Shown one piece after another: positions 9,480 through 50,235 of a DNA stretch of 64,000 nucleotides. The notes under the pieces were generated by a model. That model saw only the letters and a list, made by a program, of their open reading frames with translations, was not told where the DNA came from and searched no databases. The DNA is taken from contig NC_057924.1 in the NCBI RefSeq assembly GCF_018873765.1, forward strand, positions 9,697,001-9,761,000. Direction: 5' to 3'. Each line of letters opens with the position of its first letter. The first letter of the stretch is position 1. Source of the stretch: Telopea speciosissima. Taxonomy: Eukaryota; Streptophyta; Magnoliopsida; Proteales; Proteaceae. A program made the position numbers and the translations under genes.

Positions 9480-12400
9480 CTACCAAGAGAGGGAAAAGTC
9501 AAAGTTTTGAAAACCCAAGAATCTTTAATGTTCTACCTTCTATTCAATCCTTGACCATGACACAGACTGCAAAAAATTCATAAGACAGTAACAGTGTAAT
9601 TTATCACATCCCATGTCAGCAATGCACCTTAGCAGATTAACTGAAATCCTTCTGATCAGATTTTTATTAATAATTTTAAATCACAAATATATTCACAACA
9701 ATCTCAAAAACTAAATTACAAATCCCTTTCCTCTTAATGGGAAGAACATTTTTTTTCTCCACAGCCTGCATATATAGCTTCCTTCCACATGCCATGGATT
9801 CTGCTACATGGACAACTGTTTTGGCCACCTGACCATTGGATGGTAGATCAGCCATGTGTAGATTTCGTTATCTTAACCACATGGCCCACCATGATGTGAA
9901 ATTATGTTGTATTTTTAAGAGACCAGCTGTTTCAACATTGTTCAACCCCTTATCCCAAAAGCTCGAGCTATTGAGTAAAGGTTACAACAATATATACCAA
10001 CACACATCAACCCCCCCCCCCCCCCACATGCAAACCCATAGACACACACACACACCGCTCTACAAGTGACACTATCATGTGGTGGCGCCATCACGTGGCA
10101 CCAAGGGGCACACAACACATAACACAAACCCTTTGCACTTAATAAGGATCACACATCCGACCTCCTGGCACTGATACCATGTTACAACCGCTTATCCCAA
10201 AAGTTCAAGTTATTAAGTAAGGACTGAATAGCTTTGCATTTTTATAAGCTTTATTTCCCTTTGAACTGAAACTTGCCAAATGACTAGAGGCTGATGTGGA
10301 CATTAGGTCCACAGAGTAAGTTCCATTTCCACTTGGGATGCGGTGTGACCAAAAAACATGGCCCATGGAGAGAGATCTCTTCCTTTTAACCTTGCAAACA
10401 AATTTTGGAAGTTGTGCCAATCACTGATATGAGATCGCCAAAAAAATGTGACACCAACCTCCAAAACTAAAAGGGACTTCAGAGTTCTAGAAATTTTAAT
10501 GGACAAATAATTCTATTCATATAAAAAATGATTCATACGAACCAATGGACTCAAAATACATCTGGTTTCCTGAAAGTTCAGAAAAATCATTTAGAAGAAT
10601 AAGTAGATGCCAATGAGAAGCTTAAGTTATACCATAGAGTTCAGATAATATTGGCATGAACTTGTTACTCTATTGCTACAGTGTGATAGTTACACATAAT
10701 ATTTAAGAAGTGTAATGCAATATGGTTAACCTAACAGTAGGTTCAGATGCAAACCACAGGTAAGGATCATAGCACACAACCTCAGGACAAAAATAGTGAG
10801 ATTTTAAATAATCTGAGATGGACTGAATTGATGGCCTTGAAAACCTGGTCGAGCTGTTAATAGGAAAAGTTTATGTAATAGAGGAACTTTAGTCACTGAC
10901 TCACTGGTTTATTGTATTGTCTCCTTAAGTTGTAAAGAATATAGGGGAGAGAAATCGATTCTTTCTCCCATATGGTTGCACATCTCTTCTTCTTCTTCTT
11001 TCTTTCTTTCTTCTTCTCTCTCCTTCTCTTCTCAGCTCTTACCTTCTTGTTTCTTCCCTTGAATCGATCCTTGCTTGATTTCCAAGTTGGTATCAGAGCT
11101 TGGTTTGAGAGTCAACCAAGCTAAATTTCGTCTATACCTCTCTTAGGAACCCTAGAAAAGTAGAGGGTTCCAATAGATGCTATATCATGTAAGATAATAT
11201 ACTTATAAGATCTAATGGAGTTCTACTATCAACTAAAGACCAAATGGAGGAAGATTGGGGGTTGTGAAAGTCGATCAAAGAACCAGGGGCTCAACACAGG
11301 GTTACCGCCAGTCCTCCCTTCATGTTCATGTTTCTCTCTCATCGAGCAACCATTTGGAGTGTGGCTCGGTTTGTTAGAATCGCCCAGGAGGTAGCTTTCA
11401 CCTCCCTAGGGGCTGGGTTGCTATGGAAGCACAACTCATTTTCTCCAAGCTTGACAGGTATCGCCAGTTTCAGTTTTCCCTCTGTTTCGTCTGAAATGCC
11501 TTGTGATGTGTTAAATAGTTGTTGTTAGTTGGAGAGTTCCATTATGTGAGACTTATTGGTTGTTATGGAATGAAGCTACATGGCGAAAGGTGCAATTGAT
11601 TTGACTTTATTCAAGTAACTGTGGTTTGTTTGCTTGCTGCATTTGTTTTCTGGGTAGAGCGTACACCCCATTTGATTAAGTCTCACACTGAATCACTAAG
11701 TGTGCTATCATGTCTGGGTCTAAAGTCAATGGACCTGTGGAAGCTTCGGCTAGTGGTTTGGGTAGTACCAACCCTAGCATGACTATCTTTGAGAACCCCA
11801 ATACCCAGATATCCATTCTGAAGTTGGACAACACCAACTATTTGGACTAGGCTCATTCTATGAAGTTGTTTATGCAAAGTCGGGGGAAGCCGGGGTACAT
11901 TACTTGGTTACAGGCTCTTGGGTCAACTGATCCTACGTATCTGAAATGGGACACCGAGAACTCAACCGTTATGACTTGATTGATTTTCTCTATGAAACCC
12001 GAGATTGGTAAAAGGTTTATAAGGAAGGAGACTGCCAAGGATATTTGGGACAGTGTCTCCAAGACATTTGACTGAGTGGGTGACCCGGCAAAAGTCTACC
12101 AACTCCTTCAAAAAGTAATCACAATGAAGCAAGGTGACAGTAGTATTTCTGAATGCTACAACACTGTTTTTGGTCTCTGGGAGGAGTATGATCATTATAG
12201 GAACCTCCAACTGTCCAACCCCGAGGATGAGGCAAATGTATATAGGACACTTGAGAAGGAACGTGTTCTTATTCTACTTGGCGGGCTGAACCCAGAATAT
12301 GAGCCAATTCAGCCACAAATTTTAGGACGGTCACCCCTTCCATCTTTAGATGAGGTACGTAGCTATTTACAGAGTGAGGAGACCAAAAGAGTAGCCATGG

Positions 12401-15400
12401 ACATTGCACAATCCCTGGAGAGATCTGCACTTGCCTTTAGCTCCCACAGAGACTGGTGAGGTGGGGGAAGAGGCCTAGACCCCGTGGATGACAGAGATAG
12501 ACTAAGATGTGATCATTGTGGGAAATCTGGGCACACTAGAGAGAGGTATTGGGTGCTTCATGGCTGTCCCCCTGGTTGTGTGGTGGCAGGAGAGGGGGAG
12601 CTAGAGCCCACACCGTGACGGCTAAGACTAAGCCTATGGGGTACCCATCTAGACTACAGGCAGATCATGATTCCCTTGCTAGAGATGATATTGTTGCATT
12701 CCGCAGGATGATATCCCAGCTGGGTAGCTCTTCTACTACTCCCACAGTGTCAGACTCTTTGGCCTCAGCCTTGCAGGCCTCTACATCTGCACCTTACACT
12801 GCTCCCTCTTAGGTCATTGACTTTGGTGTCACCGATTACATGACTAGTGTATGTCTTAGTGTTATGATTCCTACTCTATTTGCTCTAATAGGGATAAGGT
12901 TAGGATTGCTGATGGTTCCAGTTCTTCTATTTCTGGTAAGGGTAGTGTTTAGGTCACTTCTTCTATTTCCCCTGACTCTGTTCTTCATGTTCTTAACTTT
13001 GCCACTAATCTATTATCTATGCGTCACCTAACCAAATCCTTGAATTGTTGTGTCACATTCTTCCCTTCTCATTGTCTTTTTTAGGATCTAGTGACGAAGA
13101 GGATTATTGGCAGTGGATGTGAGGAGAAGGGACTCTACCTTCTTGAGCCCTGCACACCTGTTTTGCCTACTGCTCAGTCCTATGTGTGTGGCCGGAATGA
13201 CAACAATACTATCGATTCTATGATGCTTTGGCATCAGCGTTTAGACCATCCTTCTTTTGTTGTTATGAAAAAACAATTACCACACTTGTTTACTTCTTTT
13301 TCTTCTTCTCATGTTTTTCAGTGTGAACCACGTATTTTTACTAAACATTGTCGTTCTTCTTATCCCTGTCATGGTAATAGATCCATTGTTCCTTTCAATA
13401 TTGTGCATTCTGATGTTTGGGGACCTACTCCCACTACTTTGTTTGGTTATCGTTATTTTGTTTCCTTTGTTAATGACTATTCCCGGTCCACTTGGACTTT
13501 TTTTATGAAAAAAAGAGTGATGTCTACGATGCCTTTAAAAATTTTTATCAGCTGATTTGTACTCAATTTGGTACTCGCATTAAAATTGTTCGTTCTGATA
13601 AGAGGGTAGAGTATATGTATGGTGGTCTCCAAAACTTTTTACTGACAATGGCATTATCCATCAGTTTGCTTGTGATGACACACCCCCAACAAAATAGGGT
13701 AGCTAAGAGGAAAAATCATTTGTTGGAAGTCACTAGGAATCTCCTATTTGGCATGCATGTCAAGACTTTTTGGTCTAATGCCTTTCATGTTGCCGCCTTT
13801 TTAATCAACTGCATGCCAACTTAACTTTTGGCTCCAAATCCCCTTTGGAAATCTTGTCTCCTCAGGAACCTGCTTTCTCTCTTCCTCCTAAGGTGTTTGG
13901 GTGTGCCAATTATGTCCATGTTAATAAATCTGCTAAGACTAAGCTTGTCCCCAAGGCACTCAAATACATTTTCGTTGGATATTCCTCCTCTACCAAGGAG
14001 TATAAGTTCTACCATCCCTCCTCTCAGGGGCGACTTCTCTCCAAAGATGTCACCTTCTTTGAATCTATACCTTTCTTTACTCCTCATCAGCATCCTCTTC
14101 ATGGAGAGACTAGTGGGAGTGAAAAGGCTGCCGATGTCATCCCTTTTCTCCCACGTTTGCCTATCTCTGCATTCCTAGTTGATATTGGGAAACACAAAGA
14201 AGTGGATGTTGTTGATGTTTGTCATCATTCAGGTGTTGGTTCTGGCAATAAGGAGGAGTTAATTGTGTACAAAAGAAAGGGGAAGAAAGGAAAGAAGACC
14301 TACCAAGAGTCCTCTTTGGATCCACTTCCTGAGTTCCACCTTCCTCAATCAGGTAACATTCCTTCTCCTCCCTTTAAGTTAGATCTTCTCATTGTCATTC
14401 GAAAGGGAAAGAGAGCTTGCACTAACCCCATAGCCAAGTTTGTTTCCTATGATGCTATCTCTCCAAAATGTTGCATTTTCTATTGCTCTTTCCTCTTCCA
14501 TTCTCAAGAATGTTACTAATGCCATGTCTGACCCAAAGTGGAAGGAAGCCATGTCAGAGAAAATGATGGCCCTTGAGAAGAATGGTACTAGGAAACTAGT
14601 TGATCTCCCCAGGGGGAGAGTTCTAGTCAGATGCAGATGGATCTACACAATTAACTAGCGACCAAATGGTGTTATAGAGAGATATAAGACCCGGTTGGTT
14701 GCCAAGGGATACAGTCAGGTGTATGGGATTAATTATCAGGAGACATTTGCTCCTGTGGCCGAACACAACTCAAGAAGAGTCCTCTTATCAGTGGTAGCCT
14801 ATAGACACTAGCCATTTTATCAGTTGATTGTGAAGAATGTTTTTCTCCATGTTAACCTAGAAGAGGAAATATACATGCAACCTCCACCTGGTTTCAAGTT
14901 TCCTTCAGCTGAAGGGAAAGTGTATCGCCTAAAAAAAGAACTTTATTGCCTCAAACAATTTCCTAAGGCTTGGTTTCCGGCGAGGTAATGGTACTATCAC
15001 AGCTCTTACTGTCTATGCTGATGACATTGTTGTAACTGGGAATGACAGGGTTGAGATAAGTAGACCGAAATTCTACTTGGCCCAACAGTTTGAGATTAAA
15101 GACCTTGGAACCTTGAAGTACTTCTTGGGGATTGAAGTGTCAAGATCAAAGGAGGCAATAAATATTTGCCAAAGGAAGTTTGTGCTAGATTTGTTGAAAG
15201 AAATAGGAAAGTTGAGTTGTAACCCAACAAACTCTCCAATTGATCAAAATCACAAGTTTGGTGAAGATTGTGGTTCATCCCTTATTAATTCAGGAAAGTA
15301 CCAGAGATTAGTTGGGAAGTTGATCTACCTCTCTTTGACTTGCCCAGACATCACCTATGCAGCTGGGATAGTAAGCCAATTTATGCATGCCCCCAAGAGC

Positions 15401-18400
15401 GGGCACTTGGATGTTGTATATTGCATCATCGGGTACTTGAAATCCTCTCCAGGGAAAGGACTTTTATATGCCAGGCATTTGAGGATAGAGGGCTGCACTG
15501 ATGCCAATTGGGCTGGTTCAGTTTCTAGCGGATAGTCTACATCAAGTTATTGTACATTTGTAGGTGGTAACCTGGTTACATGGAGGAGCAAAAGACAACC
15601 TGTCGTGGCAAGAAACAAAACTCCAGACCCTGAATTTAGAGCAATGGCTCATGGCGTATGTTACTCATATGGTTGAGATAGTTGATCCAAGAGTTGGGAT
15701 TTGACACCGAGGGACCTATGCGGCTCTATTTTGATAACAAGGTTGCTATTAGTATTGCTCATAATCTTGTGCAACATGACCGAATAAAGCACATTGAAGT
15801 AGATTGACACTTCATCAAGGAGAACATTGACTCTGGTTGCATTTGTACTCCCTTTGTGAAGACAAGTGATCAATTGGCAGATAACTTCACCAAAGGTCTC
15901 ATCCCTCACTAGTTCAGTACCCTTCTGTACAAGATGGGAATGTATGTCATTTATTCTCCAGCTTGAGGGGGAGTGGTAGAGTTTATGTAATAGGGGTACT
16001 TTAGTCATATGTTTATTGTATTGTCTCCTTAAGTTGTAATTTTCTCTTTTTTACCTTTTACCTTCCTAGGGAGGTGTATGTAATTCTTATGGAATAGGTT
16101 AGTAAAGAATATAGGGGAGAGAAATCGATTCTCTCTCCCATACGGTTGCACATCTTCTTCTTTTTTTCTTTCTTATTCTCTCACCTTCTCTTCTCCTCTT
16201 CTCAGCTCTTACCTTCTTGCTTCTTCTCTTGAATCAATCATTGCTTGATTTCCATACTTGAGTAGCACTATAGTAGAGAGGGAACAATCCTTCAAAGTTT
16301 GGCTAATATCCAATGGATGGAACTGGAGATATGGCAGTGATCAGAAAAAAGCAACTTCCAAAAAACAACAGAATTAGTAATTGACAAGAACTAGAAATGA
16401 TGGTCAGAATTTAGAAGCCAATCAAAATATAAACATCCAGAAATGGAAACTGAATTTAAGAGCCTGCAGAACAGTGTTAATAAATTAGAAACTCTACTGG
16501 ATATTGCAATGGAAACTCAGAAATTTAGTAACTGGACTGAGAATCACTGCAGGTGGTGACTTCATTTCAGCATGGTTGTGAGGACAGCATATGCAGGTAG
16601 CTAATCAATCAGTATTGCTAGTCAAACAAAACTCCAGACCCTGAATGGAAGTCTGAACCAAAGACAAAGTTAAAACCCACAATAGAAGTCAAACGTGAAG
16701 AGAATGAACCAGTACAGATTACCTTTGAGATTTGACGAGTGAGTACTAAACTGATTCAGGAATAGTTGTTCTTACGAGCAGTAGGATGTAAAATCTCAGA
16801 AACTGAGCTTATGAACTGAAGAAAAAGAAGAGAGAATGAAGAAGGGAAAAGGATATGACCTAGAATCACCACTAGGCCTATAGGAAGCGCATCACCACCA
16901 ACCACCTATCCTAATCTATTGAAATACCACAACAGGGCTGGAGGTGCATCACCACTAACCCAAAGAGGCAAAAGCCAAGTTTCTCAATAACTCAAATTGC
17001 TGGGGTAGTGTGATCCCCTACTCTTTATTTATAACTTCTATAGTTCAATGAAATAAGCAAAATAGAAAACCCCTATCTAAGGTAGGGAGAATCTTATAAC
17101 TTAAGTCTTCTCCAAAATAGAAACTAGGAGCTGGAATGTAGGTAACCTGTCCAGCCTTTTAAAAACACTACTAAAATAAAAAATACAACTTAAAATAGAA
17201 ACTAACACTAATCCCATACACACATTAAATCCTTAATGTTTGAGCTTATAGAATTGGCCCATTACAATAGTAAACCCAAAAACACTAAGCCCATGGTTCA
17301 TATAACTCTTTGGACACTCAAAATTAAACATATTGGTCCATTCTTGGTCTAATCCAATGGCCTGGTTTGTTGCTGGCTTTCTTGTTCTTCTGAACTGCAC
17401 TAAAACAGCTTTAAACCAAGATATTTGAATATTTGATGGATAAGGAAGGGAAGGCAGAAATCTAAATGTCCCATTCCAACCATCGATCAGAATTTACCCC
17501 AATATGACAAGATTGACATTTGGCATTCTGTAGGACAGGCACCATACTGCACTTGTTAAGCATCAAACCAAAGGAAAATTGGATGTTTGCAAACTTTGCC
17601 TATGTGGCATCTGACATATAAATGGCTATATCAGGATATAAGATTTGTAAAAACAAAATGGCTTTTTTTCACCAGTACCACCATCCTTCTGCTGATGCAG
17701 CGAAACAAACCAGCATGCTAGTTGAACAAAGTCTTGTGGGCATCATAAGCCCTGAAACCACGGATCAAATCCCCCTTTTTAAACTTTACAAAAATTAAAG
17801 TATATCTTCATCTATTGCCAAGACATGCAGTTGAGTTACATATGGCTTACTGAGGCTGAAGTCCCAACAAAGGGATGGGATCTACTGCTGACTAATGCTG
17901 ATTCATCCAACAGTTCTTTTTTGGGGGTTTTAGATTTATTCAACATTTCACAGGCTTGAATGTGTATCACATGAAATGATGAAACAAACAAAACAGGGCA
18001 TTATACCTCAAGAACCAAAGTAGTAACCATCACAGTACAAACATTGCCATCAATGTTGACTTTATGATGTCGAACTTGCTCAAGCAATTGCTGGATGCAC
18101 TCAGAAGGATTGAAACCATCCCCTTCTGGGGTAGCCCAGAAACTGAATGCCTTATCCACCTCCTGTTGAAAAACCAAAATGTTATTATCACATATATGGC
18201 CAAGAAGGAATTGCTACTTCTTTTGCACTGGTTAACCAGGTAACACCATAAAAGTAAACAATATTAAAGAACAAGAAGGTTGTTAACAACCTAAGTCAGC
18301 TTCCTCACAACCTCAGCTCTCCATGGGTGGAGTATCAACTCAATTTTGTGACTCACTTCAAAATAGTAGCCAATGCCAAATGATGACCCTGTTTTCTGTG

Positions 18401-21400
18401 ATTTCAGAATTTGTGGATGGTATATGAGCATAGTTTGACCTTCAACAGTTTATCTCGCTTTCGAACCTGATCAAAACAAAACCACCAGCAACTTGACAGG
18501 TTTACAAGTCTTTGGTTGAAATTTCAGCAAAATGACCAGAACGATTGAAATTTTGCTCGAAATGGTTGAAATTATGTACTGCTTTCCAATTTTATGGCTC
18601 TTCATTGTTATTGCATATTTCAATTAGTTTTATTAAATGTTATACTTTATAAGACCAAATTAGGTGTAGAATAGGCTATATAAGGGAAAGTATACAGTAG
18701 ACGAAATTTGTTGAACCTTGTATACGAAGAATGATGAATTTGGTAGCAACTAGAAGAGCCCATTTTAGTTGGATTTAGCAGTGCAACTCGGGTGGGCCTG
18801 GGGTGAGAAATTGATCAATTATGAATCAAACTGAGACCAAACCCAGCCTGATTTCATTGAAATTGAGTCCACATTCAGCCTGAGTTGCACCCCTAGCTGG
18901 ATTTCTTAGAGTTCAAGAAAGTGAAGAAATCCTATTGCTTCAAGCCTATGACCTTAATGCTTACAAGTAGAAACTACTGGGTCAACCATCTTATATTCAG
19001 ACTCTGAATTTTTCTTATTTACAATTATTTATAGTCAATCAACCGAACCTATTTAGTTGGAATAAGGTTTAGTTATTGTTGTTGTAATTATTTATAGTCA
19101 ATCCAATCCTAGAATCTAGTAATTCCCACCCAACAAAAAAAGTGAAAGTGATGCAGGAAGAACTAAAGTCTAACTAATACTTCAAAAGATGGTGTCTTAC
19201 TTGGAAAATACAAATTCAACTCGCGGGGTTATATTACCCTTAGTCACGTCTCTTTCTCTTTTTCTACTTTTTTTTTTGGATAGAATAATTATAGGCGACC
19301 CATAGACTGCTCCACTAAATGTTGCTGTTTCCTGAGGCTTATTTTCAAAGCTCAAACCCTGTTTAGTATGATTTTGTCACTACTTGAGAACTTAATCAGT
19401 TACCATTCCAACAAGACAATTATTGTGCAATCCCAACTGTATTGGGAAAGCTATATCCAGTATATTGATAGGGTGTTGGTATTTGATGGGATTACCATGT
19501 CAAAAAAGTTTTGTTTTGTTCACATTTCAGAATTTTTTTTTGAGTCTATTTCTAAAGTTTACAACCTAATTGTGAAAGTTGTCAAGCACTCAAGGGAGTA
19601 CCTAAAATAAAACAGGGTGTCTGATTAGGATTAGGAGTGTTAAGAGTTGTTTTTCTTTTCCTAATGGTAGGAATTCAAGAAAGACTCCACAATCACTCCA
19701 TGGGAAACTATAATTCAGGATTTTGGTTATGGAATATAAATATAAGGTTGCTTGCAGGTATTCTTCTAGATTGGCAGTGGTCATTCCATTGCTATTATCT
19801 GAAGTTAACAGTGTTTGTTTTCCAGTTCTTTAAAGTTCTAAGTTCCTTTTCTTGAAGATTTCCAGCTACAGAACATTCTATGCAAATTGATTAGAACCTA
19901 GAACAATTGCATAAGTTTTTCTACCGTCCTTGCCTGCTGTTAAGAGGATTACTGATCTTTAATAATTTCAAGAACTCTTTATAATTACTTCAAACCTGAT
20001 TTGTTTTTAATAGGTTCTCTTATCTTCTAATCAATTTCTTCGAATTTTCTCCCTTGAATTATTGATTTAGTCCTTTTGATTTAAATTTTCCTGTTTCAAT
20101 CTTCATTTCTATTCCATATTCTTAACTGCTAACGTAATTTCTGAATGGCAAGATATTTACCAAAATAGCTAATTTTAAACGATAAAGGTTTGGTTCCTTG
20201 GGCCCCATATTTCCAAAGTTGGGAATTCTTATATCAAGTTTTACCAGAAGAAACTTAAATACGGAATGCTCTAATAAATTTCCGTTGACCTGAATCAAAA
20301 ATTCTTTTCATTACCATTACACCGTACAGAATTCTCATTGGACTTCAAGATCTCAAGAAATATTTGGAAATAGTTTCTTGCTCACTCGAACAACTTCAAG
20401 AAAGTTATGAATATGGTGCTATACTCAGGAAAGAAGAGAAAGGAAGGGGGAACCTATGAAAACATCACAGTAAAGGTACAGAATCAATCTTGTTCAGAAA
20501 ATTCTACAAAGATAACCAAAGAATCAAGGAACATTAAAGAACCCATATGATGTGGAAATATTTGATGTAAAGGCAATGAGAAGTCGTCTGTCTTGATTTG
20601 ATCTTTCCAGATTAGCTCCTCCACAACAAAGTTCGATCATAGCTGACTATCTTCCTACCGCAAGTTCTCTTTAAGGTTACTTCACAGGATCATTATGGAA
20701 GTGAGTTGTTGATCATTTACAAAACTCATGGCCGAGTTTCTCCCAATCAAAGGGGTAGATGCAAGAGCATTTCAAAGGTTCAAACAAAGATGTTTCTCCC
20801 TCAGAAAGTCCATGCAATCTGATAAGAATCTATAACAACCCTGGAAGTTTATCTGCTATTTTCCGATTCCCTGAATGAATTATTTATTTTCTGATCAATT
20901 TCCCTCAATTTTCTCCCTAACTACCCCACATCTCAATCTCTTGATTTCTCCATTGCTTTTGGATTCCCTATTAAAGTCTTCATCATCATTCACATATCCT
21001 CTATCACTAATCCAAAATCTCTAAGAGTGTAATCATCTACCAAAATAGAAAAACTGATGCAACCAAAAGTGAAAAGTGATGCTTGTTTTGATGTCATGTG
21101 GTTTCAGGCTTCGTTTTTTCATGGGGTTACTTGCAATGGCCTAATGGGCCCATTATACAGTCCCAATATTGGGTATTGGGAAGAGCATGAATTCAATTTA
21201 CCTTTTTTAAGTTGTGGGGACCTGTATCTGTTTTTGGAAAGCTTAGTTTCTATTTTTCAGATAAGTCTTAAGTTGGGAGTCTCTCCTAACAGTACCTGGT
21301 TTATTATCCTTCCTCTAATTTCTTCAGTTTCTTAATATTAATCAGTTCTAACCTTTTTCTTACTACCTTTACCTGTATTTCAGCCCTAGAAATCTAAATC

Positions 21401-24400
21401 CCTAGGCAGTCCTATATCAAAAACCTTCTGAGATTTTATAAGGTAACCTTTGTTTTTTTAGGCCAGTACTCACAAGGATAGGATCGTAAAAACATCCTAG
21501 CAATAGGAAGGACTTCAGATCTAGTAAAGAGAACTGGTATATAACTTCGGTCTAGGAACAAATGACAAATTTGTAAAAGCCTTTGTTGAAGGGTATTACA
21601 AAGAACAATGTTAATAGAATTCAGTCTACTAACAATGCTATGTAACCACATATATTTTACCTCGACAAAGGCCTCAGGATTCGGGCAGCTCTGCTGTTTT
21701 GACAATCTCAGTGTGCACTCTGCAGCAGTGCGGCCATCTCGAAGGGCAACAGCCTTAAAGAACCCCAGTAAATTCTCTCGATCACTCTTACAAAGCTCAG
21801 TAGTCATGCCTACATCAAGGAAAATGACGTGAGGCTTGGGCTTGTGCAAAGATTTGCTATGGGTCACCCGGACAAGGATATTTCCAGGATGCATGTCTGC
21901 ATGGAGAAAATTGTCCACCTGAAAAGAATATGATATCTCAAAATACTTCAATTCCAGCCATCGTATCTGAACAACTCATTTAATTGTCTAGCGGAAAAAC
22001 AATTACCATCATCCAAACTTGCTAAGCTAATTGTGGGGATTTGAAATTTAAATATCATAAATAAAGATATTAGCGCAGGTGAACAGCTATGAGATCAAAT
22101 ACACAGCTACCCAAGGATGACAGAATGCAAAACACCAAGAGTAACATAAGAATAGCCTAGATGGAAGGTCACATGTAGTTCTACAAAACTTAATTCAAAT
22201 TAACACCATAATTTTCTGCGTCATTGTCTAGTTCATATGATCTATATCTTGAAATGATGACCTCATGACTAGGTAACCATCTAGATGATGCAGAAGCATT
22301 ATTTTATTTGACTGGAGTGAGAACATTTCTTCAATGTCGTGAAGCTCTTCCCATGCAGCTCATTTAACTCAAGGTCTTCTTATTCCAAGATGGAGAATAT
22401 TTGCACTTTTGGTCAAGTAGAGAAAAATGGATGTTGAACCTCTGATTCATCACAACTAGCCCATGGGATTCAATACGGGGTAGGAAGGCTAATTGCAAAG
22501 ATTTTAAAGAAGTGGGTTATTGGTCTAAGAGTGGCTAATAGGAGGTCGATAGATTTTGGGGCCGTAATAGTAATTTCTTAGAAACAGGTAAGAAAGGTTA
22601 GGTAATTAGTAGCATAGCTGTCAAGGCGCCACCTTGGCATCCAAGTGCTTCTGGCCATCCAATGCATGTTGGCACCTAGTTGTTTCTGTTAAAGTTTATA
22701 GTTGGAAGTTAGTCTATAGTTTGTGAACTATTGCCTTTATGTGTGGTGTACTGGAGGGTAGTTATGGTCAATAGTCTTTTCTTAATAGAGAAGTCTTGTG
22801 TTAGTGGAATCATTTTTTATCAATATAAATATTGTGGCTGACGGTAAGGTGATTTTGATTCCCATATGTGAGCCTTCTCTCCCTAGTCGATCTCTCTCTC
22901 TCAGTTTCTTCTTCTTTCTTTCTCCTTCTCTTCTTCTTCTTCTTCATTGATTCTGATTGTTTTATCTGATTTGTCACATGGTATTAGAGCTATGAAGAAG
23001 AAGAAGAAGAAGAAGAATTATACCCTAGTTAATCCAATATGAAAAAGAACTAGGGTTTCTACTGTTTTGATGGTGCCTTGCTGTTCTGCTATATGTTGGT
23101 TTCATCTACGCATGAAGTGTTCTTGCTGGAAACGATATCTTCTCACACTGCACAAGGAGTTCTCTACTGATATGACGATTTCTGTTAATATGAAGTTTCC
23201 TGCGCATGGAGTTTCGATTGCTGCTTTTCATATGGATCTGGTTTGATCCCATTTTGGCATTATATTGAACCTCACACACTTGTGGCATCTCTGTTTTCTG
23301 GGTTTTTTTCCTGGTAATGTTATCTCTGGTTTCAATCATTATTTTAATACAATAAACTGGTGGAGATTAACCCCCTGCAGCACCTTTGTTTGACTGTTAT
23401 ACTACGCCTCGCAGTACCCTTGTTATGGAGTATTTTTCTATTATTCTAACCTCTTTGGGCACCCAGTTTTTGGGTCTTATTTATCCTGGTTATGGTACTG
23501 CTGGTTTGATCCCTTTATGGGCGGTACATTGGTAAAACCGTAAAAGTACACTTCTCATAACACTCCTAGTTTGCTGTTTTTACTGCTACCATCAGAACCC
23601 AAGTTTTAGGGAAGATTTCTGCTGCTGTTATACCTTGTGGCACCCCTGTTTTGGAGGTTTTTTGCTTCACTTGAATATTGGACTGTGTTTTCAATCCAAC
23701 AGTTGGATCATCTCAACTACCAAGGTACTGTTATATATATCAGAGATTGGTCTTCAACAGTGCTTTGGATTGGCTGCCACTGCTTTTCTCCAAATCACTC
23801 AGTTTTTCTTCCCTACGGTTTTGGTTTTTTTCCCGTCTGCTTGTCTGGGGCTGGACTTGCTGCTGTGTATTGACTGAATACTATTTGTTGGGTGTATTTG
23901 AGACTCCATATTGATTATACATGTATTTCTTGGTGGCCTATCGCCTGCAGTTGGGAGTTCATGGTCGTCTCCATGATCTGTGACCTGAGGCTGTCTCTGA
24001 TTCTGCCCTGTGGTTTTCTGAGTAATTGTTGATTTAATATATTGATGTTCTGCTGCGATCATCCTCTGTGGCTTGTAGATGACAGTATGATGCGCATATG
24101 GGAGACTGCTTCTAGTTTGGTCATCAGATCCATTATTTTCTACAGTTCTTGGTAACCTGCTAATTTGGTGAAGGTATGTTGCTTCTACTGTTTAAGTACT
24201 GCTTGGTATACTCCCTCCACTATTCGTCCACGTGTAGTGCTACATGTGAGGGGGAGACTGGAGTTATCATGAATTATCATCTGATATTCGAAGATTATTA
24301 CTATTATCTACTCATGCCATCATCAGCATAGTGTCATCTACTTATCTGTTCGTGGCATCTGCTCGTGGCATCTGTTTATCTGTTCGTGTCGTCTGCTCTT

Positions 24401-27400
24401 TTCATCAACAACATATTTTCTCAGGAAGATGGTTACTTGTGGTTTGCAGCAACAAGATTGTTATTTGTGGTTCACAACAATCTTGTTTTGTTTCTTGTGG
24501 TTCGCAGCAACCTTATGTTGTTATCTTGTGACTCACAACTACCTTATATTGTTACTTGTGGTTTACAACTACCTTATGCTGTATTTGTGGTTTACAGCTA
24601 TCTTATGTTGTTATTTGTGGTTCGCAGCAAACTATGCTTCTCTTTAATCTGTGGTTCGCAGCAACCTATGCTGCACTTTTCTCTGTCTTCTTTGTGAAGA
24701 TCACTACTTACCTTCTTTGAGAAAGGCTTATGATGTTGATGTTGTTGTTGTTGTTGCTATGGTATTTGGGCTTGCGGTTGGCATTCTCTGCCGCTAATCT
24801 TTTTCGTTGCTGTTTAGATTTATTCGACACAAAGATTTTTCTCTACTATTGCTTCTGAAAATTGGTGTGCATGTGTTGGTTTTGCGGTCGGAAGGAAGTT
24901 CTCTCTGTGATAACTATCATCTACGAGTAATATATATGTTCAAGACTGGTTCTGTTGTTTATAATTGTTCTTGTTGTTCCAAGCTGGAGCATTTGGTTTA
25001 CATGCAAATATATATATATATATATATAGATATGCTCCAGCTTGAGGGGGAGTGTTAAAGGTTATAGTTGTGTTCAAGTTTATAGTTGGAAGTTATCGTC
25101 TGTAGTCTATGAACTAGTCTTTATGAATAGTCCACTGGAGGGTAATTATGGTCTATTGTCTTTTCTTCCTGTACTAGTGGAATCCTTATCGTATGGTGTA
25201 ACTGCCCTATTTTACAACATAAATAAATATTGTGGCTGATGATATGGTGATTTTTATTCCTCCATAAGCGCTTTCTTCTCCCTAGTCGATCTCTCTCTGT
25301 CAGTTCTCATTCTTCTTTTCTTTCTTCTTTCTCCTTCTATTCTTCTTCATTGATTCTGGTTGTTTTATCTGATTTTGTCATAGTTTCAAACTTTCAATGG
25401 CTTTTTTAATATATTATTCTCCTGAATTTTTTATTTGCTTGTGTACAAACTTTTGGTACACCAAGATGCATGAAATCACATGCTGTGAAACATAGTTGTC
25501 AAGGTGACCCAAGGTGGTGGAGGTATGCCTAAGCGCTTAGGCAACAAGGCACCCGCCTAGGTGTTGCCTAGGCAAACAAGGCGACCAAGTGTTATTTTTT
25601 ATTGCCCCTCTTTTCTAACATTATTTAGTATGTTACAATATATACCTTATATCATAAAAAAAAAATCAACATTAAGCCACATCAAGTCATCAAAAATCAA
25701 CATAGACTAGAAGTCAGCAGAACTAAAGAAGCAAGCTATTGGAAGTTTGAAACAACAAAAACATACAGGTGGTTTATATTGTTCTTGGAATTGATCATTA
25801 TCACAGTATACCTAGTCTCACATTTGGTTTATACTGTTCTTAGAAATATGATCTTATCTACAAGTAATTAAATTTCTCTCGGTTTAGAGAAATGCTCTTT
25901 TTCTCTAAGAAGTTTGACTGGTCAAATGATTTTTCTTTTACATGAGACTTGTTGTATCAGGTAGAGCACAAAACCAGCTTTCCAACAAATCCAAGATTGA
26001 TTAAATCAAATTTATTTTGAAGGAGTTATGTTCCGGTCAAACTTTATTTGGTGTGCCCGAATGCTGTCAAAATCACTCTAAATGAAAATATTTTTTTTAT
26101 ATCAAAACAAATGAATATTTTACTGTCTTTTGGTTTTTAGCAATGTTTTACCATATTAAGATTTATGGAATTTTTAGATTTGAAAAAAAAAAAAAAAAAA
26201 AAAAACAGCATTAGAAAGTTGAAAATTTCACCAACCATCGAAAATGCAGTTTTTGTTCTTGAACTGAGGGGTTGACTTTTTATCCTTTTGGAATTTGATT
26301 TTTTAACTGTTTTTATTGGATTTAAATAGGGAGTATTGGCTTACTTATGACTAACATCTTAAGTAAATGAAATAACAAACATAAAAACACGTCCGCCTAA
26401 GTGACACCTGGGCGATGCCTTGACAACTATGCCATGAAATTTAAAAAAAAAAAACAAAAAAAGGAGTCAAATCAAAAACGCACATTCTCAAGACTTCGTC
26501 CCTTTCTCAATACACAAGGCAACCCTTCCTCTGAAACCTTATGGCATCTTAACAACATGTGGCGACTGCGAGCCGGCTGCAACCCAACTGGTAAGTCTTC
26601 TTCTTCTCTTCTTTTTTTTAATCTTCCTCTCTGTTTCGCTGCATTTTTCCTTTCCTTTCTTCTTCATTCCCTGTTTTGCTGCATTTTTCCACTCCTCTTC
26701 TGTTTTTCTTTTCCTTTTTTCCCCCTCTGCTTTCCTTTCCTTTCCTTTCCTTTCCTTTCCTCTCCTCCTCCTCTACCCTTCTTTTTTTTTTCCTGTTTTT
26801 TTTTATTCTGTTTCTGCAATACTGCATATTGTGCTAAGACCATTATATATTGCTGATCAGCGAAGGAGGTGTACAGTGACAGAGAATCTGAGATTTGAGA
26901 CCATTAACAAAGGCTAAGGTTCTTAAACCTCCAGCTAGTAAGTTATGTTGAATTTGGTTGCTATATTATTATATTCTTTAGGCATCATTTATTCTGTAAT
27001 ATGTAATCTGTATTTCTGTATTGTTCCTTCCACAAGGCAAATTACTGCTAATAGTAGCATAGATACCATTGCTTACCTTGTTCTACTGCAAAATTTATCA
27101 GGCATGCTGTTGGAAAGTCATATTGTGAACATTTTAGTGTGTTCAGTGATATGTTTATCAGGCATGCTGTTGGAAAGTGATGTTGTGAAAAGTTTAGTGT
27201 GTTTTTACATACTAGGGCACCTACATGATGCCAATGTGGGTGCCTTGTCCGCTAAGCGCTTAGTTGGCCCTCCAACGCCTTGGGTCGCCTAGGCGCCTTG
27301 ACAACTATGATTTGTAGGCAGTTTCTATAATGGTTTTAATCATAGTTGTTAAAGTGTCGCCTAGGCAGCATCCAGGTATTTTTGGGGAGGCTAGGCAGGC

Positions 27401-30400
27401 CTTGATTTATTGAACATGCAAAAGGTGCCGCCTGTCTTGGTGTTCTGGGCGACACATAGGACGCCTTGGCTCGCCTTATAAGCTGGGCACTCGCCTTCTT
27501 GCATATTTGTTTTATTTTTTTTTTAAAAAAAACTTATACTTATATAGTTTTTTTATTCTATTTCTAACTTTTTTCATTCGCATGTATACAGGATAACAAG
27601 CACCCTGCTACACGGGATCAAAGTATATAAAATAGAGTTAAGAGGATCTTCTCTCACAACTCACACCCTGCAACCTCAACCCTCAAAAGGGTTTAACATC
27701 TTTAACCTTCCCCGTGACCATAAGACGAAATCAGTAGGGCTGTGATGCTATTCGTCCTCTACTCCGGCAATGGCATATCCAGCATCTCCAGCTTCAACAA
27801 TGGTAAGTTTGAGTTTTCATTTCCCATGATGCACTGTTTATTATTATTATTATTATTCCTCCTTACTTTTTTTGTTTTCCTTCTTCTTCACCATGACACA
27901 CTGTTTTGTTCTTTTTCTTTTTGTCCATCCTTCATTCCTCTGTAATTTATTAATCGATTTGTTTTTTTTATTTACTCTCTTTCTTCTTCTTTCTTCTTCT
28001 CCTTCTCATCCTCCTCCATCTTCTTCTTCTCCTCCTCCTTTTCCCTGCTTTTTCTTACTTCATTTTGCCTTTTCAGCAGTCAAAATGCAGCTGTTATTTT
28101 TCATGATGATTTGCCATGACTTTATTTGTAGCATTATCAATAGGGATGTAAACGGATCGGATTCGGCTCGGATAGTGCTATATCCGCATCCACATCCTAT
28201 TAGCTTTCGGACGGATTCGGATAGTGCTAAACGGATACGGACACGGATACGCATCGGATATTTTAACCGTTTACTTGTAAATATAGCTTTTCGGATAGTT
28301 ATAGCCTATTCGTATCCGTATTCGTTTAGCTTTCGGACGGATTCAAATAGTGCTAAACGGATACGGACATGGATACAGAGACGGATTTCGGCTATTCATT
28401 TACATCGCTAATTATCAATGTGATCCATCACTAGGGATGTAAACGGATCGGATTCGGCTCGGATAGTGCTATATCCGCATCCGCATCCAATTAGCTTTCG
28501 AACATATTTGGATAGTGCTAAACGGATACGGATCGGATATTTTATCCGTTTACATGTAAATATAGCTTTTCGGATAGCTATAGCCTATCCGTATCCGTAT
28601 CCGTTTAGCTTTCGGACGGATTCGGATAGTGCTAAATGGATACGGCCACAAATTCGGAAACGGATTTCGGCTATTCATTTACACCCCTATCCATCACCCG
28701 AGGACAGTATGAAAGCATCAGAGCAGTAGCAATATCGTTGTATTTCTCCAAAGGAGCACTGAGAATTGCAACAACTTGCTTTGTAGCTCTGCTGTCTTCA
28801 AGTCTGGTCTTCCAGAAAGCTTCTTAACACACACTCCCTGCAGAAAAATAACCTAGAGAATCAGGTAGACAAGCACCCTTTTGTAAAATCTTTTTCTCCT
28901 TTTTCGTTTATCGGCTAAGTTTTAACCTTTTTATCAAATTTTGTTGTGATATGTGAAATGTGCATAATTGGTCAGTTCTGCTATTGTTCGAAATATATGG
29001 CATTGTGTGAAAATATATTGAGTTAAACTTGAATTCAATCTCTGTTTTTAACCTGATTTATTGTTTATGTTTGTCAGAACTCAGTTCTGAACTGCTAATT
29101 TAATTTGATGTAGCATATAAGTAGAATTATATCATTGCTAATATGCTATTTCACTATTTTCTATGCTAGTCTACTAGAAATAATGGATACATTAAAAAAA
29201 AAAATAGTAGGATGCCTAGGCGGCCGCCTAAGCGCTTAGGAGGCCCTCCAACTCCTTGGGTCGCCTTGCGCTTTGACAACTATGGTTTTAATGTCTAGTG
29301 GTTTGAGTAGGAGTGATGCAGTTTAATCACCTAAATGGGCCTATTTTATTAGAAATAAGCTTTGGGCTGGGTTATGTATGTGTTGGGCCTTTGATACAAT
29401 GTGTTTTCATTGTAATGGATCACTTTAATGGGCTTATAATATGAGTAGAGGCTAGGCATACGAGATTAGTTAAGTAGTGTCTTCATTTCTTTATTTTAAT
29501 TTTTATTAAGTGTTTTAGTTAGGCTGGATTAGGATTCTACAAGTCCAGTCCTGTTTTGAGTTAAACATAGCCAACTAGAAAACTCATCCGCTTGTCAATT
29601 CTGGGTGTAATACTCATCCGTAAATGATTGGTGTCAGAATTTTTCACCTACTATTACAATTCTCTTTCTTTCTCTTAATTGAAGAAATAATTGGAAAATA
29701 AAACAGCAATTACAAAAATGAGTAATAACCCCTAGTAGAGACTGGTACAATTTAATTCAACATTTTGTTTGTTTGGGTTTGATTGTGTCGTAGCAAGAAA
29801 GAGGAGCAGGGGGAGTTGATTCCCAATTATGAAGCTGAAAAGCAAAGATTACCAATCACCCACTAAGGCGGGTGGGGAAGGGGAGAGTGGAGAGTGAGAG
29901 AGAATGTCCCGAGTGGAGAGGAACCCTTTACCTACATGGCCCTTTTTCTCTTATCCGATTTGGGAGCTGAACCTTTTTGCATGTAAAGCAGGGCAAAGCA
30001 AAGACCTATAGCTTTAAGCGCGCTCCGAACCAAAGGAGGCATTTTCATTTTAGTGTTTGAGTCTCTTTTTTTTTTTTTTTTCTGGTGGAAGTATTTGAGT
30101 CTGTTTTGAGTCTTCTATATAAGTTTGTAATGGGGTCCAGCCTTGTACACGAATTTGATTAATGAGATTTTGGCATGAGCCTTTTCTTTACTCTATGAGA
30201 TTCAGATTTGTTGTGAGAGATAGTGAGAGACTGAGAAGCTCCACCTATTGGAGAGATTCTAATCTAGGCTTATTGGTGGGAGATCAAAAGTCATATCCTC
30301 TTCTATATTTTCTGTTTTTCTTTTTTTTCCTCAATTTTGCTTGAGGTCCTGTTAGAAGAGGTGTGTAATCCTAACCTAGGGTTCATCCTATCTACACCCC

Positions 30401-31900
30401 CCCCCCCAACTAAGGAGGGTGGTAAGCATGGTTTCTAATATCTAGCTACTAATTTGTTGTTTCATTAATTTCCAAGTTCTACTTTTTGGAGAAACTAAGG
30501 AGTATATACATACAGATTGGATATAAGCCAGCAATTAATTTGATCACACCCAATGACACCGATGTCTTGCAGTATCCACAAAAATTTGAATAGGTGAAAA
30601 TCTAACTAAACATTAGCTTAAAAAGAGGAAGGAAAGAGAAAAGAACTGTTATTAAAACAATATAAAATGTAAGAGATGGTACCAGAAGCATCTTCAGAAG
30701 GGCATGAACCCCAATGCGAGCAAGTGCACTTTTAATTCTGTTATTTCCTTCAAGCTCATCAACATAGTAGGAAACACATTCTCCTTGCTCATAAGTTTCC
30801 ACCAAGACAGCAGGATGCACAAGTGGATACAAAGGTTTCGGAAAGGATACATCTTTCCATCTCCGGAAATTGTAAATAAACCGACTCAAATGAGCAGCTT
30901 CCCTTGCAAGATCAACTTGAGACATCATGAAAATGGCAAATTGCTGGACACTTTGATCCAACCTCAACCACTTCAAGGTAGGGATGAAACTTGATATCTT
31001 GGCAATCACATTAATAATCGCAAAATCCCTCCTAATTATTTCCCCAACACCAGGATGTCTAACTTTCACAGCAACTTCAATGGGCTTGACCTGTTGACCA
31101 GGGTACCGAAATCTCAAAGAAGCTCGATGCACTTGGGCAATACTTCCAGATGCTACAGGTTCTTCTTCAAAATTTTCAAAAATTTCAGGAAGCTTGCGAC
31201 CAAATGCTTTCTCAATAGTCCTCTTCGTGTAGGCAAAGCTATGTGGTGGTGCTTGCATATGAAGCTTTGCAAGCTCAGAACATAGATCCTTAGGGAAAAG
31301 ATCTGGTCTGGTGGCTGCCCACTGACCCCACTTTATGAATGCTGGGCCTGCTATTTCTAGTGTATGATGGACAAGGTGAAGCCATGCTTTCCTAAAACGA
31401 CCATTGAAACAATCTACAAATGGAGCCATTGTCATCGCAGGTGAAAACAAAATTGCCAAATAGATCAATCTCACAAACAAAATAACACCCTCCAAGACTG
31501 AGTAAACAAGAGAGGTCAGATAGACATGTCCATCTCGTGCATTCATGTATAGATTGTTTCCTTTTGGAAAGTATTCAGCATCTGCCCAAGTTCTCTGTGT
31601 CCATGCAACCTCTCCTATAATAAAGGCAAAAATGCTAGGAGCTACCAGGTGTGATCTGGCCAATGCCAAGCTGACAGCACAAGCAATCCTACTTATTGGT
31701 GGGAATGCTGAGCCTCCATATGAACATATATGCGAAAGTCTTTTCCAAATAACTTGGGCATTACGTGTCATGTTATCACTTGCTAAGACAAAAGTGAGGT
31801 TCTTGGAATATCCAGCCTTGTATAAATTCTCCTTCACTTTGTATGATCTAATCGGCGCATGTCGACTAGGAAGACTACACAACGAATATGACCTGCTCAT
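9360..31900 (-). CDS. ABC1/UbiB-family atypical kinase, ADCK2/abkC-like (four exons)
   Basis: Predicted atypical protein-kinase-like protein of the ABC1 (ADCK/UbiB) family, subgroup of human ADCK2 and Dictyostelium abkC. Relatives act in mitochondria and are linked to coenzyme Q; location and role here are inferred. Coding exons are 31900-30683, 21918-21661, 18162-18007 and 9479-9360, all with GT-AG introns in phase 0, giving 583 residues. Visible motifs: the KxGQ signature (KWGQ, 190-193) in GPAFIKWGQWAATRPDLFP; ASGSIAQVHRA in place of a glycine loop (250-260); VAVKVRHP with the candidate lysine 279; the catalytic-loop equivalent HADMHPGN (412-419); and DVG (441-443) in place of DFG. Hydrophobic stretches lie near residues 131-156. 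The final exon encodes GWRRKLDPEYNVLDTLQTLI and ends YTIEGLMAP. No key motif is missing, so the gene looks intact although introns make up about 92% of its length. Confidence 0.9.
9480..10854 (-). other. Kinase intron 3, part distal to the copia element
   Basis: Non-coding intron sequence. A run of 15 C lies at 10011-10025, followed by a CACA microsatellite near 10040. No further gene is seen. Confidence 0.5.
10855..11084 (+). repeat. 5' LTR of the copia element
   Basis: About 230 bp ending GCTTGATTTCCA. It matches the 3' LTR over GTTTATGTAATAG, GAATATAGGGGAGAG and the TC-rich 3' part. It lacks about 60 bp that are present in the 3' LTR after CTTAAGTTGTAA. Confidence 0.85.
11088..11099 (+). 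other. Primer-binding site of the copia element
   Basis: TGGTATCAGAGC, complementary to the 3' end of initiator methionine tRNA, three bases after the 5' LTR. Confidence 0.9.
11710..12560 (+). pseudogene. copia gag remnant
   Basis: The frame starts ATG at 11710. In-frame stops lie at 11848, 11977 and 12073; the first two replace tryptophan codons expected from the flanking motifs. The stretch 12076-12459 reads openly and resembles the gag/UBN2 capsid region. A zinc knuckle CDHCGKSGHTRERYW begins at 12508; its last cysteine is replaced by tyrosine (TAT at 12547-12549), so the CCHC box is broken. Confidence 0.8.
12800..13830 (+). pseudogene. copia protease/integrase remnant
   Basis: The protease motif reads VIDFGVTDYM (12813 on), so the catalytic DSG is changed to DFG, and a stop lies directly before it at 12810. 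The pre-integrase region MLWHQRLDHPS and the integrase core start FNIVHSDVWGP and FVNDYSRSTWTFF are visible between 13091 and 13520. Frame changes occur near 13510 and 13820. Confidence 0.8.
13845..15060 (+). pseudogene. copia integrase C-terminus and reverse transcriptase remnant
   Basis: KVFGCANYVHVNKSAKTKL begins near 13890. Reverse transcriptase pieces include KEAMSEKMMALEKNGT and RYKTRLVAKGYSQVYGINY. The first catalytic aspartate block reads QLIVKNVFLHV, so Asp is lost. YADD is kept at 15014-15025. About 25 codons are missing after CLKQFPKAWF near 14980. A stop at 14809 replaces a probable tryptophan. Confidence 0.8.
15077..15960 (+). pseudogene. copia RNase H remnant
   Basis: KDLGTLKYFLGIEVSRSKE, YQRLVGKLIYLSLTCPDITY and the RNase H motif CTDANWAGS are present. 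A stop at about 15533 interrupts the frame, and reading resumes with CTFVGGNLVTWRSKRQPVVA. The usual serine/acidic motif after this point is replaced by NKTPDPEF (see findings). Confidence 0.8.
15962..15973 (+). other. Polypurine tract of the copia element
   Basis: CTTGAGGGGGAG directly upstream of the 3' LTR start TGGTAGAG. Confidence 0.8.
15974..16254 (+). repeat. 3' LTR of the copia element
   Basis: About 281 bp, from TGGTAGAGTTTATG to GCTTGATTTCCA. It is the more complete of the two LTRs. Confidence 0.85.
16255..18006 (-). other. Kinase intron 3, part proximal to exon 3
   Basis: Non-coding. A 23-base block at 16624-16646 is identical to one inside the copia RNase H region (15613-15635). 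Otherwise nothing is recognised. Confidence 0.5.
18007..18162 (-). CDS. Exon 3 of the ABC1-type kinase
   Basis: The acceptor TTTCAACAG precedes GAGGTGGATAAG; the donor is CTTGAG/GTATAA. Its 52 codons encode EVDKAFSFWATPEGDGFNPS and end NVCTVMVTTLVLE, matching the C-lobe of the family. It is too short to stand out as an isolated reading frame. Confidence 0.9.
18163..21660 (-). other. Kinase intron 2
   Basis: About 3.5 kb, non-coding and AT-rich. No transposon ends or gene fragments are recognised. A 92-codon open frame at 21057-21335 shows no known motif and is probably chance. Confidence 0.6.
21661..21918 (-). CDS. Exon 2 of the ABC1-type kinase
   Basis: The acceptor TTTTCAG precedes GTGGACAATTTT and the exon ends GTCGAG before GTAAAA. 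Its 86 codons encode VDNFLHADMHPGNILVRV, the FLDVGM motif and LRLSKQQSCPNPEAFVE. They carry the catalytic-loop and metal-binding equivalents. Confidence 0.92.
21919..22604 (-). other. Kinase intron 1, part next to exon 2
   Basis: Non-coding, no repeat recognised. Confidence 0.5.
22687..22978 (+). repeat. 5' LTR of the non-autonomous element
   Basis: Begins TGTTAAAG and ends GTCACA. It shares GTTTATAGTTGGAAGTTA, AAATATTGTGGCTGA and CTCCCTAGTCGATCTCTCTC with the 3' LTR. Confidence 0.85.
24425..24675. repeat. Minisatellite, ~8 units of ~31 bp
   Basis: Variants of TTGTGGTTCGCAGCAACCTT repeat about eight times, with units of 28-34 bases. It lies inside the interior of the non-autonomous LTR element and explains the overlapping open frames there. 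Confidence 0.85.
25053..25382 (+). repeat. 3' LTR of the non-autonomous element
   Basis: Begins TGTTAAAGG and ends GTCATA, where the usual terminal CA has become TA. It is about 38 bp longer than the 5' LTR because of small indels. Confidence 0.85.
25491..26431. mobile_element. hAT-like TIR element A, nested in element C
   Basis: Ends CATAGTTGTCAAGGTG and GATGCCTTGACAACTATG. Flanks CTGTGAAA and CCATGAAA agree at 6 of 8 bases, a plausible decayed target duplication. 941 bp, no coding motif. Confidence 0.65.
28142..28410. mobile_element. Mutator-like MITE 1 inside the VPS35 fragment
   Basis: 269 bp with ends AGGGATGTAAA and TTTACATCGCTA. The 9-bp repeats ATTATCAAT at 28133-28141 and 28411-28419 are perfect. 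The interior is built of ACGGATTCGGATAGTGCTAA words. A 9-bp duplication is typical of Mutator-superfamily insertion. Confidence 0.85.
28433..28689. mobile_element. Mutator-like MITE 2 inside the VPS35 fragment
   Basis: 257 bp, same family as MITE 1. Starts AGGGATGTAAACGGATCGG and ends TTTACACCCCTA. Flanks TCCATCACT (28424-28432) and TCCATCACC (28690-28698) match at 8 of 9 bases. Confidence 0.85.
29314..30396. mobile_element. Possible solo LTR in kinase intron 1
   Basis: Starts TGATGCAGTTTAATCACC and ends CTATCTACA, with an internal promoter-like CTATATAAGTTTGTAATGGGG at 30114-30134. The composition (GGGCCTATTTTATTAGAAAT, GGGCTTATAATATGAG) resembles plant gypsy-type LTRs. I found no target duplication or second LTR, so this is tentative. 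Confidence 0.35.
30683..31900 (-). CDS. Exon 1 of the ABC1-type kinase
   Basis: It has 406 codons, from ATG at 31900 to ATG CTT CTG before the donor GTACCA at 30682. It holds the N-terminal region, the KWGQ motif, the ASGSIAQV loop and the VAVKV lysine. The reading frame continues past the donor as intron sequence (translated VPSLTFYI), which is not family-like and confirms the splice point. Confidence 0.9.
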
Positions 31901-33200
31901 GGAGGAAGGTAGAGCAAGGGAGAAAAGTATTACATTCTTCTTGACTTCTATAAAGCTGGTCCTCTGGTTTACGAGAAGGAAATGTGCAACTGTTCGAATG
32001 TTTCCAAATGAAAAAAACCTACACTTCCAACAAAAAACATATTACTCTTCCACCAAGCAGAATGCTACGAAGTTTAGAAGTAAAAATTAATTAATTTTGA
32101 GCCCCATGAGCTGGAACTGGAGTAAAATGAATATTTCATTTTATTCCAAGCTAACTAAACACAATTAAACATTTCATGTCCAGCTGATGAAGGAATCTTA
32201 AACATTCGTGCAGACATTCACACTAAAAAAACAAAACACCACAACAACGATATAAAACTATACTTCCTGATTAAAATTACTTCACCAGAAACTTTAATTC
32301 ATAGAAGTTCACGAACTAGACAACAAAATCCGTGTCAAAACAGCACAAACAAAGTTCGATCCGCATCCGCAAGCTCTTCAAACAAACTCTAATCGAATTT
32401 AACGAATTCAGCTCAGGAAACAGGATGGAATACAAGACAGCAGAACAATTCTACCATTCAAACCCTAACTAAAAAGTATCCAGACACGATCATCGGAATG
32501 CTAAACTGCGATCAACATGAAAACTTAGAACTTGAAATCCCACACATTGAAAAAAAAGAAAGAAGAAACATGAAAACCAAAACCCTATCAAACAAACAAG
32601 AAGGAAACAATTTTAGAGAAATATGAATTTCTTGCAGCTTGCAGAACCGACTACCAACCTTGACATGGTGAATGCTATCAGTGCAAGCTATTTTAACTAT
32701 AATACACAGGTGAGGTATTCCTGCCGGCATTGTCACCCGTTGGCGCAGACAACCATCGTCGTCATCTCAGCCATTGCCACCGTCGTTGTTGGTCATCATC
32801 AGGCTTCGATGTGGCTGATGGCTGCTGACTGTTTGACGACTTTTACATTTCTGTTAAGAACTAACAACCTTCCCCCCCCCCCCCTCTTTTTTTTTGACAC
32901 CTTTTTCCTGCTACAACCTACAGTGCTGTTTTGTTTCCGGCCGATCTTGCAATACGCCGGTAGCCGGCGCTTTGGAGAAGGGAGGTTTGGATCTTGTCGC
33001 GAATGAGAGATTTATATGCTCCACAGAACATTCCGAGTTCGTTTTTGTTAATTGTTGGAGCTAATAAGTTCCAGCAGATCCGGATCGAGGACTGGCCAGA
33101 CTCCAGAGACCGCTCTTCGAGGCCTTGCCGCGTTTATATCTGCCACGTGCTAATTCATTTGAGGTTAAATTTCAATAAATTTGCGAAATAGAACGCTGCC
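31901..33200 (-). promoter_or_regulatory. Upstream region of the ABC1-type kinase gene
   Basis: It must hold the promoter and 5'UTR of the minus-strand gene. A donor-like GTTGGTAG after CAAG (minus strand, near 32655) could end a non-coding first exon, but no TATA box is convincing. A C-rich run lies near 32871-32884. Confidence 0.35.
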
Positions 33201-40037: not shown

Positions 40038-40304
40038 CATGGTTTGGGGTTACCGATATCGCATCGTCTGTATCAGTTTTGTATCGATTTTGCAGGGCAA
40101 CGATCCCAATACTGTGTTGATACTGTATCGGCAACACGATACAAACAAGGGGTAAAACAGTTTCAGTCAAAAAAACCCATTTTTTTTAAAGAAGATTAAG
40201 GACAAATTTATCTGATATGACCGATCCGTTCTGATATCGTATTGGTATTGTATCGGTTTTGCAAATGACCGATACCTAATCCGATACCCTGCACTAAAAC
40301 CATG
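40038..40304. mobile_element. hAT-type MITE, CATGGTT/TATCGG family, copy 2
   Basis: 267 bp, starts CATGGTTTGG and ends AAAACCATG. It has a perfect 8-bp target duplication CTTCATAT (40030-40037 and 40305-40312). No coding capacity. Confidence 0.88.
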
Positions 40305-49286: not shown

Positions 49287-49539
49287 CATGGTTCGTGATC
49301 TCGGTACAGGTTGGATCGGATTGGATGGGGATTGGATCGACCGATATGGATTGGGATCACCCAAATTCGAGCAAATATGACACTTTTGTCCTTATTTTCT
49401 TATAAAAAAAAACTATTTTTTTAAAACATTTTTACCTTTGTCCGTACAGATGAATTAGATCGGTATCAGGATTGGTCTCAACCGATACCGATCCAATCCG
49501 GCCAAAATTGGCTGATCCGATCCGATACTTCAAACCATG
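49287..49539. mobile_element. hAT-type MITE, CATGGTT/TATCGG family, copy 3
   Basis: 253 bp, CATGGTTCGTGATC to TTCAAACCATG, with a perfect 8-bp duplication GTCCCCTC (49279-49286 and 49540-49547). Confidence 0.88.
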
Positions 49540-49973: not shown

Positions 49974-50235
49974 CATGGTTCTAAGTATCGGTATCACATC
50001 GCCTGTATCGGGTGATATGTATTGGGTTTGCAAGTAGCCGATTCCCGATACTATGCTGATATCGTATTGGTGACACGGTACGAACAATGGGTAAAATGGT
50101 CAGAAAACTCCTTTTTATAAGGAGATTCATGGGTAATTTTGTCTGATACAGCCGATCCGTTTCAATACCATTTCGGTATCATATCGATTTTGCAAGTGAC
50201 CGATACCCAATCCGATACCGAGCACTAGAACCATG
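49974..50235. mobile_element. hAT-type MITE, CATGGTT/TATCGG family, copy 4
   Basis: 262 bp, CATGGTTCTAAGTATCGG to CACTAGAACCATG, with a perfect 8-bp duplication AATTAAAT (49966-49973 and 50236-50243). Confidence 0.9.

Follow-up and report, generated by a model that had tools for sequence, protein, structure and literature searches.

A probable Pack-hAT element carrying a VPS35 gene piece in an intron of an ABC1-type kinase gene of Telopea speciosissima

The kinase intron and the element inserted in it

The window analysed is a stretch of 64,000 nucleotides of the Telopea speciosissima genome (NCBI RefSeq assembly GCF_018873765.1, contig NC_057924.1, positions 9,697,001 to 9,761,000, forward strand), and all positions are counted from its first letter. 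The minus strand carries an ABC1-type kinase gene with a GT-AG intron of 8,764 bp (21919..30682), delimited by Pfam matches in the flanking exons and by reading of the splice sites. The minus-strand frame at 30605-32041 matches profile positions 1-186 of the ABC1 atypical kinase domain (E 8.8e-42) and that at 21439-21975 matches positions 185-242 (E 8.3e-10), and the protein joined across the intron reads MLL-VDNFLHADMHPGN. A reading made earlier from the sequence alone (the sequence-only reading) had placed a hAT-like element in a kinase intron, and the two halves of the ABC1 domain in the two flanking exons bear out the intron.

Within this intron lies a hAT-type element of 1,944 bp (27341..29284, no strand assigned), recognised by its inverted ends, an 8-bp duplication, and ends of the same family elsewhere in the window; subtracting the two MITEs nested in it, each with a single copy of its duplication, reduces its length to 1,400 bp. 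The target-site duplication GTTTTAAT, read directly from the sequence, is perfect and flanks the element on both sides (27333..27340 on the left, 29285..29292 on the right), its 8 bp being the length expected of the hAT superfamily. The left terminal inverted repeat, CATAGTTGTTAAAG (27341..27354, plus strand), and the right one, CATAGTTGTCAAAG when read on the minus strand (29271..29284), were located by a terminal-sequence scan and an end alignment. These are short ends of the CATAGTTGT type, with 13 of the 14 terminal bases inverted. The left junction reads GTTTTAAT then CATAGTTGTTAAAG, and the right junction CTTTGACAACTATG then GTTTTAAT, so that the limits of 27333..29292 and the perfect duplication given by the sequence-only reading are exact, and its hAT-like class agrees with the ends, the duplication, and the related ends nearby.

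Two features of the ends count against classing the element as a Pack-hAT. Beyond the first 14 bases, the two ends are only loosely alike in the end alignment. The usual terminal pattern of hAT elements is YARNG, and the ends here, CATAG, match it at positions 1, 2 and 5 (position 4 being free) and depart from it at the third base. The terminal sequence of Ac/Ds differs from these ends. A profile search of 12 short frames on the minus strand of the element returned no transposase match, and the element is probably non-autonomous. On the plus strand at 27624-27808, TATATAAAATAG was seen by eye, followed by an ATG at 27770 and GTAAGT at 27803; this could possibly be what is left of a first exon, belonging either to a transposase or to a second captured gene.

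As a control for chance, perfect 9-bp inverted ends accompanied by a perfect 8-bp duplication and set 100-6000 bp apart were sought in 60 dinucleotide-shuffled versions of the window. Together these gave 10 matches, and the real window gave 12 rows, of which seven fall at one poly-A place and the other five include the element described here. Because of this background, the ends and duplication by themselves are only moderately strong proof of the element. Its structure is nevertheless firm, because four further copies of the 14-base terminal sequence occur in this intron, three of them exact (25491, 26431, 27309) and one, at 22613, with a single mismatch, and the six ends of the family were aligned together. 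In view of these neighbouring ends, a chance origin of the element's own was rejected. Three further candidates (19574, 14571-14584 and 777-790) carry three mismatches each, the limit of the scan (<=3), and were set aside as chance.

A VPS35 exon-like piece split by two MITEs

On the minus strand of the element, 28069..28837 holds an exon-like piece of VPS35, identified by Pfam, PDB and a shuffle test, with outer limits that follow putative splice-like borders. Two nested hAT-type MITEs, absent from the sequence-only reading, split the piece, and a perfect 8-bp duplication flanks each of them. MITE 1 (28141..28410, plus strand, 270 bp) has the ends TAGGGATGTAAA and TTTACATCGCTA and is flanked by ATTATCAA at 28133-28140 and 28411-28418; MITE 2 (28432..28689, plus strand, 258 bp) has the ends TAGGGATGTAAA and TTTACACCCCTA and is flanked by TCCATCAC at 28424-28431 and 28690-28697. 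They share 235 of 258 aligned bases (91% identity) and lie in the same orientation, and their ends, TAGGG with one TAGCG, conform to the YARNG pattern. A gap of 21 bp, including 8 bp of MITE 1 duplication, separates them, which places their insertion points in the exon 13 bp apart. The pair at 28141-28689 is itself a tandem insertion, and joint movement of its members could carry off the DNA between them.

Removal of the two MITEs, together with one duplication copy for each, leaves a VPS35 piece of 225 bp that carries two frame changes, and one frame, EDSRATKQ...VMDHIDNATNKVMA, then runs through both former insertion points. The joined 77-aa reading, in which X marks the two frame breaks, matches positions 363-429 of the 726 in the Pfam Vps35 profile (E 0.00023); its score of 20.3 bits falls under the curated cut-off of 35 bits, as is expected of so short a piece. 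The unbroken 48-aa part matches by itself (E 0.0076, 15.2 bits). In a PDB search with the joined parts, all four sequences returned at E up to 10 were VPS35 (best E 0.017). None of 5000 shuffles reached the VPS35 alignment score of 68, the highest scoring 45. When all six frames of the 64 kb were scanned, the four best windows (63, 56, 51 and 50), which overlap one another, all lie on this piece, the next best elsewhere scoring 48. The sequence-only reading had called a VPS35 exon inside the element, a claim that would have lapsed had VPS35 matches been lacking; the Pfam and PDB matches to the joined reading uphold it, with the amendment that the VMDHIDNATNKVMA peptide is continuous only with MITE 1 removed.

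Taken without joining, the pieces are weak because two short transposons sit inside them: one of the four tested matched Pfam Vps35 at E 0.12 and the other three gave no match to it, and a PDB search with the 50-aa piece (E up to 1) gave nothing. No further VPS35 match was found in 10 short minus-strand frames, eight within the element and two outside it; among these frames, two sub-threshold Pfam matches to unrelated families (E 0.17 and 0.22) were taken as chance. The two outside frames are also the only ones in which VPS35 homology past the ends of the element was sought, a weak test of the continuation that the sequence-only reading named as a sign of an ordinary pseudogene. An NCBIfam search returned 0 families, and a search of 21000-32500 against Rfam at the gathering score gave no match, by which a known RNA family was rejected. 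An intact coding exon was likewise rejected: the piece cannot code, because of its two frame changes and of a stop, at 28671-28673 within MITE 2, that interrupts its main frame. With VPS35 at 28069-28837, captured host coding DNA lies between the ends of a TIR transposon, which is one of the defining features of a Pack-TYPE element.

Borders of the piece and its origin

On the upstream side, a putative splice acceptor, CTGCAG after a T-rich tract (28838..28843, minus strand), borders the piece, and the Pfam match begins four residues past this border, where TTATTTTTCTGCAG meets GG. On the downstream side, GC stands in place of the expected GT of a donor (28067..28068, minus strand, read by eye), directly after GAAAAG, and GTAAG starts ten bases farther downstream (GT at 28057-28058, also by eye). 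The Pfam match stops nine residues before this putative donor, leaving the last nine codons outside it; these are probably VPS35 too, as in plant VPS35 proteins. Read in this way, the piece fits one 225-bp exon that has kept its acceptor and whose donor has decayed, and VPS35 was likely captured from genomic DNA with some flanking intron included. Genomic capture rather than cDNA capture was also the conclusion of the sequence-only reading; its evidence is the splice-like borders, and the acceptor side, where homology runs from four residues on, speaks for it, whereas on the donor side homology stops nine residues short.

All of this is best explained, and with high confidence in our view, by a Pack-hAT that has since decayed: a hAT-type transposon, itself probably non-autonomous, acquired part of a VPS35 gene, probably from genomic DNA together with some flanking intron, and was inserted in the kinase intron. 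Capture may have happened at a break inside or next to an older element, through repair or a switch of template, or else when neighbouring elements moved together; a transposase encoded elsewhere would then have moved the composite. The MITEs would have been inserted after the capture, because an intact VPS35 gene is not expected to carry both in an exon. At present, the element would be inert intron sequence that is spliced out.

Within this explanation, the route of capture may have been the joining of two neighbouring hAT insertions of the same family with VPS35 DNA between them, and not gap repair, to which we give a little less than an even chance. Gisby and Catoni propose tandem insertion followed by re-mobilisation for plant Pack-TYPE elements (excerpted text of PMC8903248). 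Such a route fits the element, because its ends differ past the first 14 bases and another family end, at 27309, stands 31 bp from it in a local cluster of the family; this is not proof, since age can also make ends diverge and no single element sharing either half of it is known here.

Instead of being taken directly from an intact VPS35 gene, the piece might stem from a processed cDNA or an already rearranged pseudogene, but this is unlikely. The downstream border, which lies outside the demonstrated VPS35 homology, leaves room for such a source, but the T-rich tract and CTGCAG four residues before the Pfam match, with GAAAAG and GC on the opposite side, argue against it, and a cDNA would be expected to bring neighbouring exons, of which the 10 minus-strand frames gave no trace.

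The VPS35 piece and the kinase gene lie on the same strand, the acceptor-like site is kept and GTAAG follows ten bases past the decayed donor, so use as an exon is conceivable; that some kinase transcripts include the piece as a premature-stop exon, which would lower kinase expression, is very improbable. It is hardly credible that the piece is just a fragment of an ordinary VPS35 pseudogene whose flanking inverted ends and duplication match by coincidence; the shuffled windows leave some room for such matches, but chance would not yield the four other ends of the family in the same intron.

Known systems and other elements in the window

Gene-fragment capture is already known, and maize Ds2-22 and the maize Pack-hATs are direct precedents for the element. 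According to the excerpted text of one report (PMC3260210), Ds2-22 carries exons 5 and 6 captured along with the intron that separates them, from a known donor locus; two Ds2 and nine Ds-l4 elements of maize hold gene fragments, and capture was called, in 2011, a rare feature of hAT elements. As far as that text goes, the maize elements and the one described here have in common the hAT superfamily and captured exon pieces and, probably, a non-autonomous state and the presence of intron sequence; they differ in that the donor here is VPS35 and that the captured piece has been struck by two MITEs.

A study of rice and maize from 2022 ties Pack-TYPE elements to all main plant TIR superfamilies, including hAT, and the maize Pack-hATs in its excerpted text share with our element inverted ends, an 8-bp duplication, captured coding DNA and insertion within genes (PMC8903248). 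One of them, Zm-hAT-TL35758, lengthens an exon of the gene that hosts it, whereas the element in Telopea gives no sign of contributing to the kinase transcript. For Pack-TIRs of animals, gap filling with template switching has been described, and Pack-hAT-N8_XT of the western clawed frog resembles our element in having hAT ends around duplicated host DNA but differs in its animal host, its many copies and its known parental copy (PMC8277862, in excerpt). Literature searches on the terminal-sequence strings of the element and on VPS35 paired with capture terms found no report. The present case is one more example, with clear limits, of a hAT-type element that has captured a gene fragment, and it settles no open question; its nested MITE pair is the kind of tandem insertion that has been proposed as a step before capture, and illustrates that model.

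Other candidate elements were seen in the window. A possible larger member of the same family, 4.7 kb long, lies at 22613-27309 and ends 31 bp before the VPS35-bearing element; its duplication, ATTAGTAG and ATTTGTAG, agrees at 7 of 8 bases. Its 10 reading frames gave no transposase match, and two sub-threshold Pfam matches to unrelated families (E 0.049 and 0.07) were taken as chance. Another possible member, at 25491-26431, is nested in it, with flanks that agree at 6 of 8 bases. Three more elements, at 40038-40304, 49287-49539 and 49974-50235, are short (about 250-270 bp) and have CATGGTT at their ends and a perfect 8-bp duplication each; the first and third are 77% identical, and the second is much less alike (62-70%, in either orientation). 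At 12076-15535, reading frames examined by eye resemble a decayed Copia-type retrotransposon.
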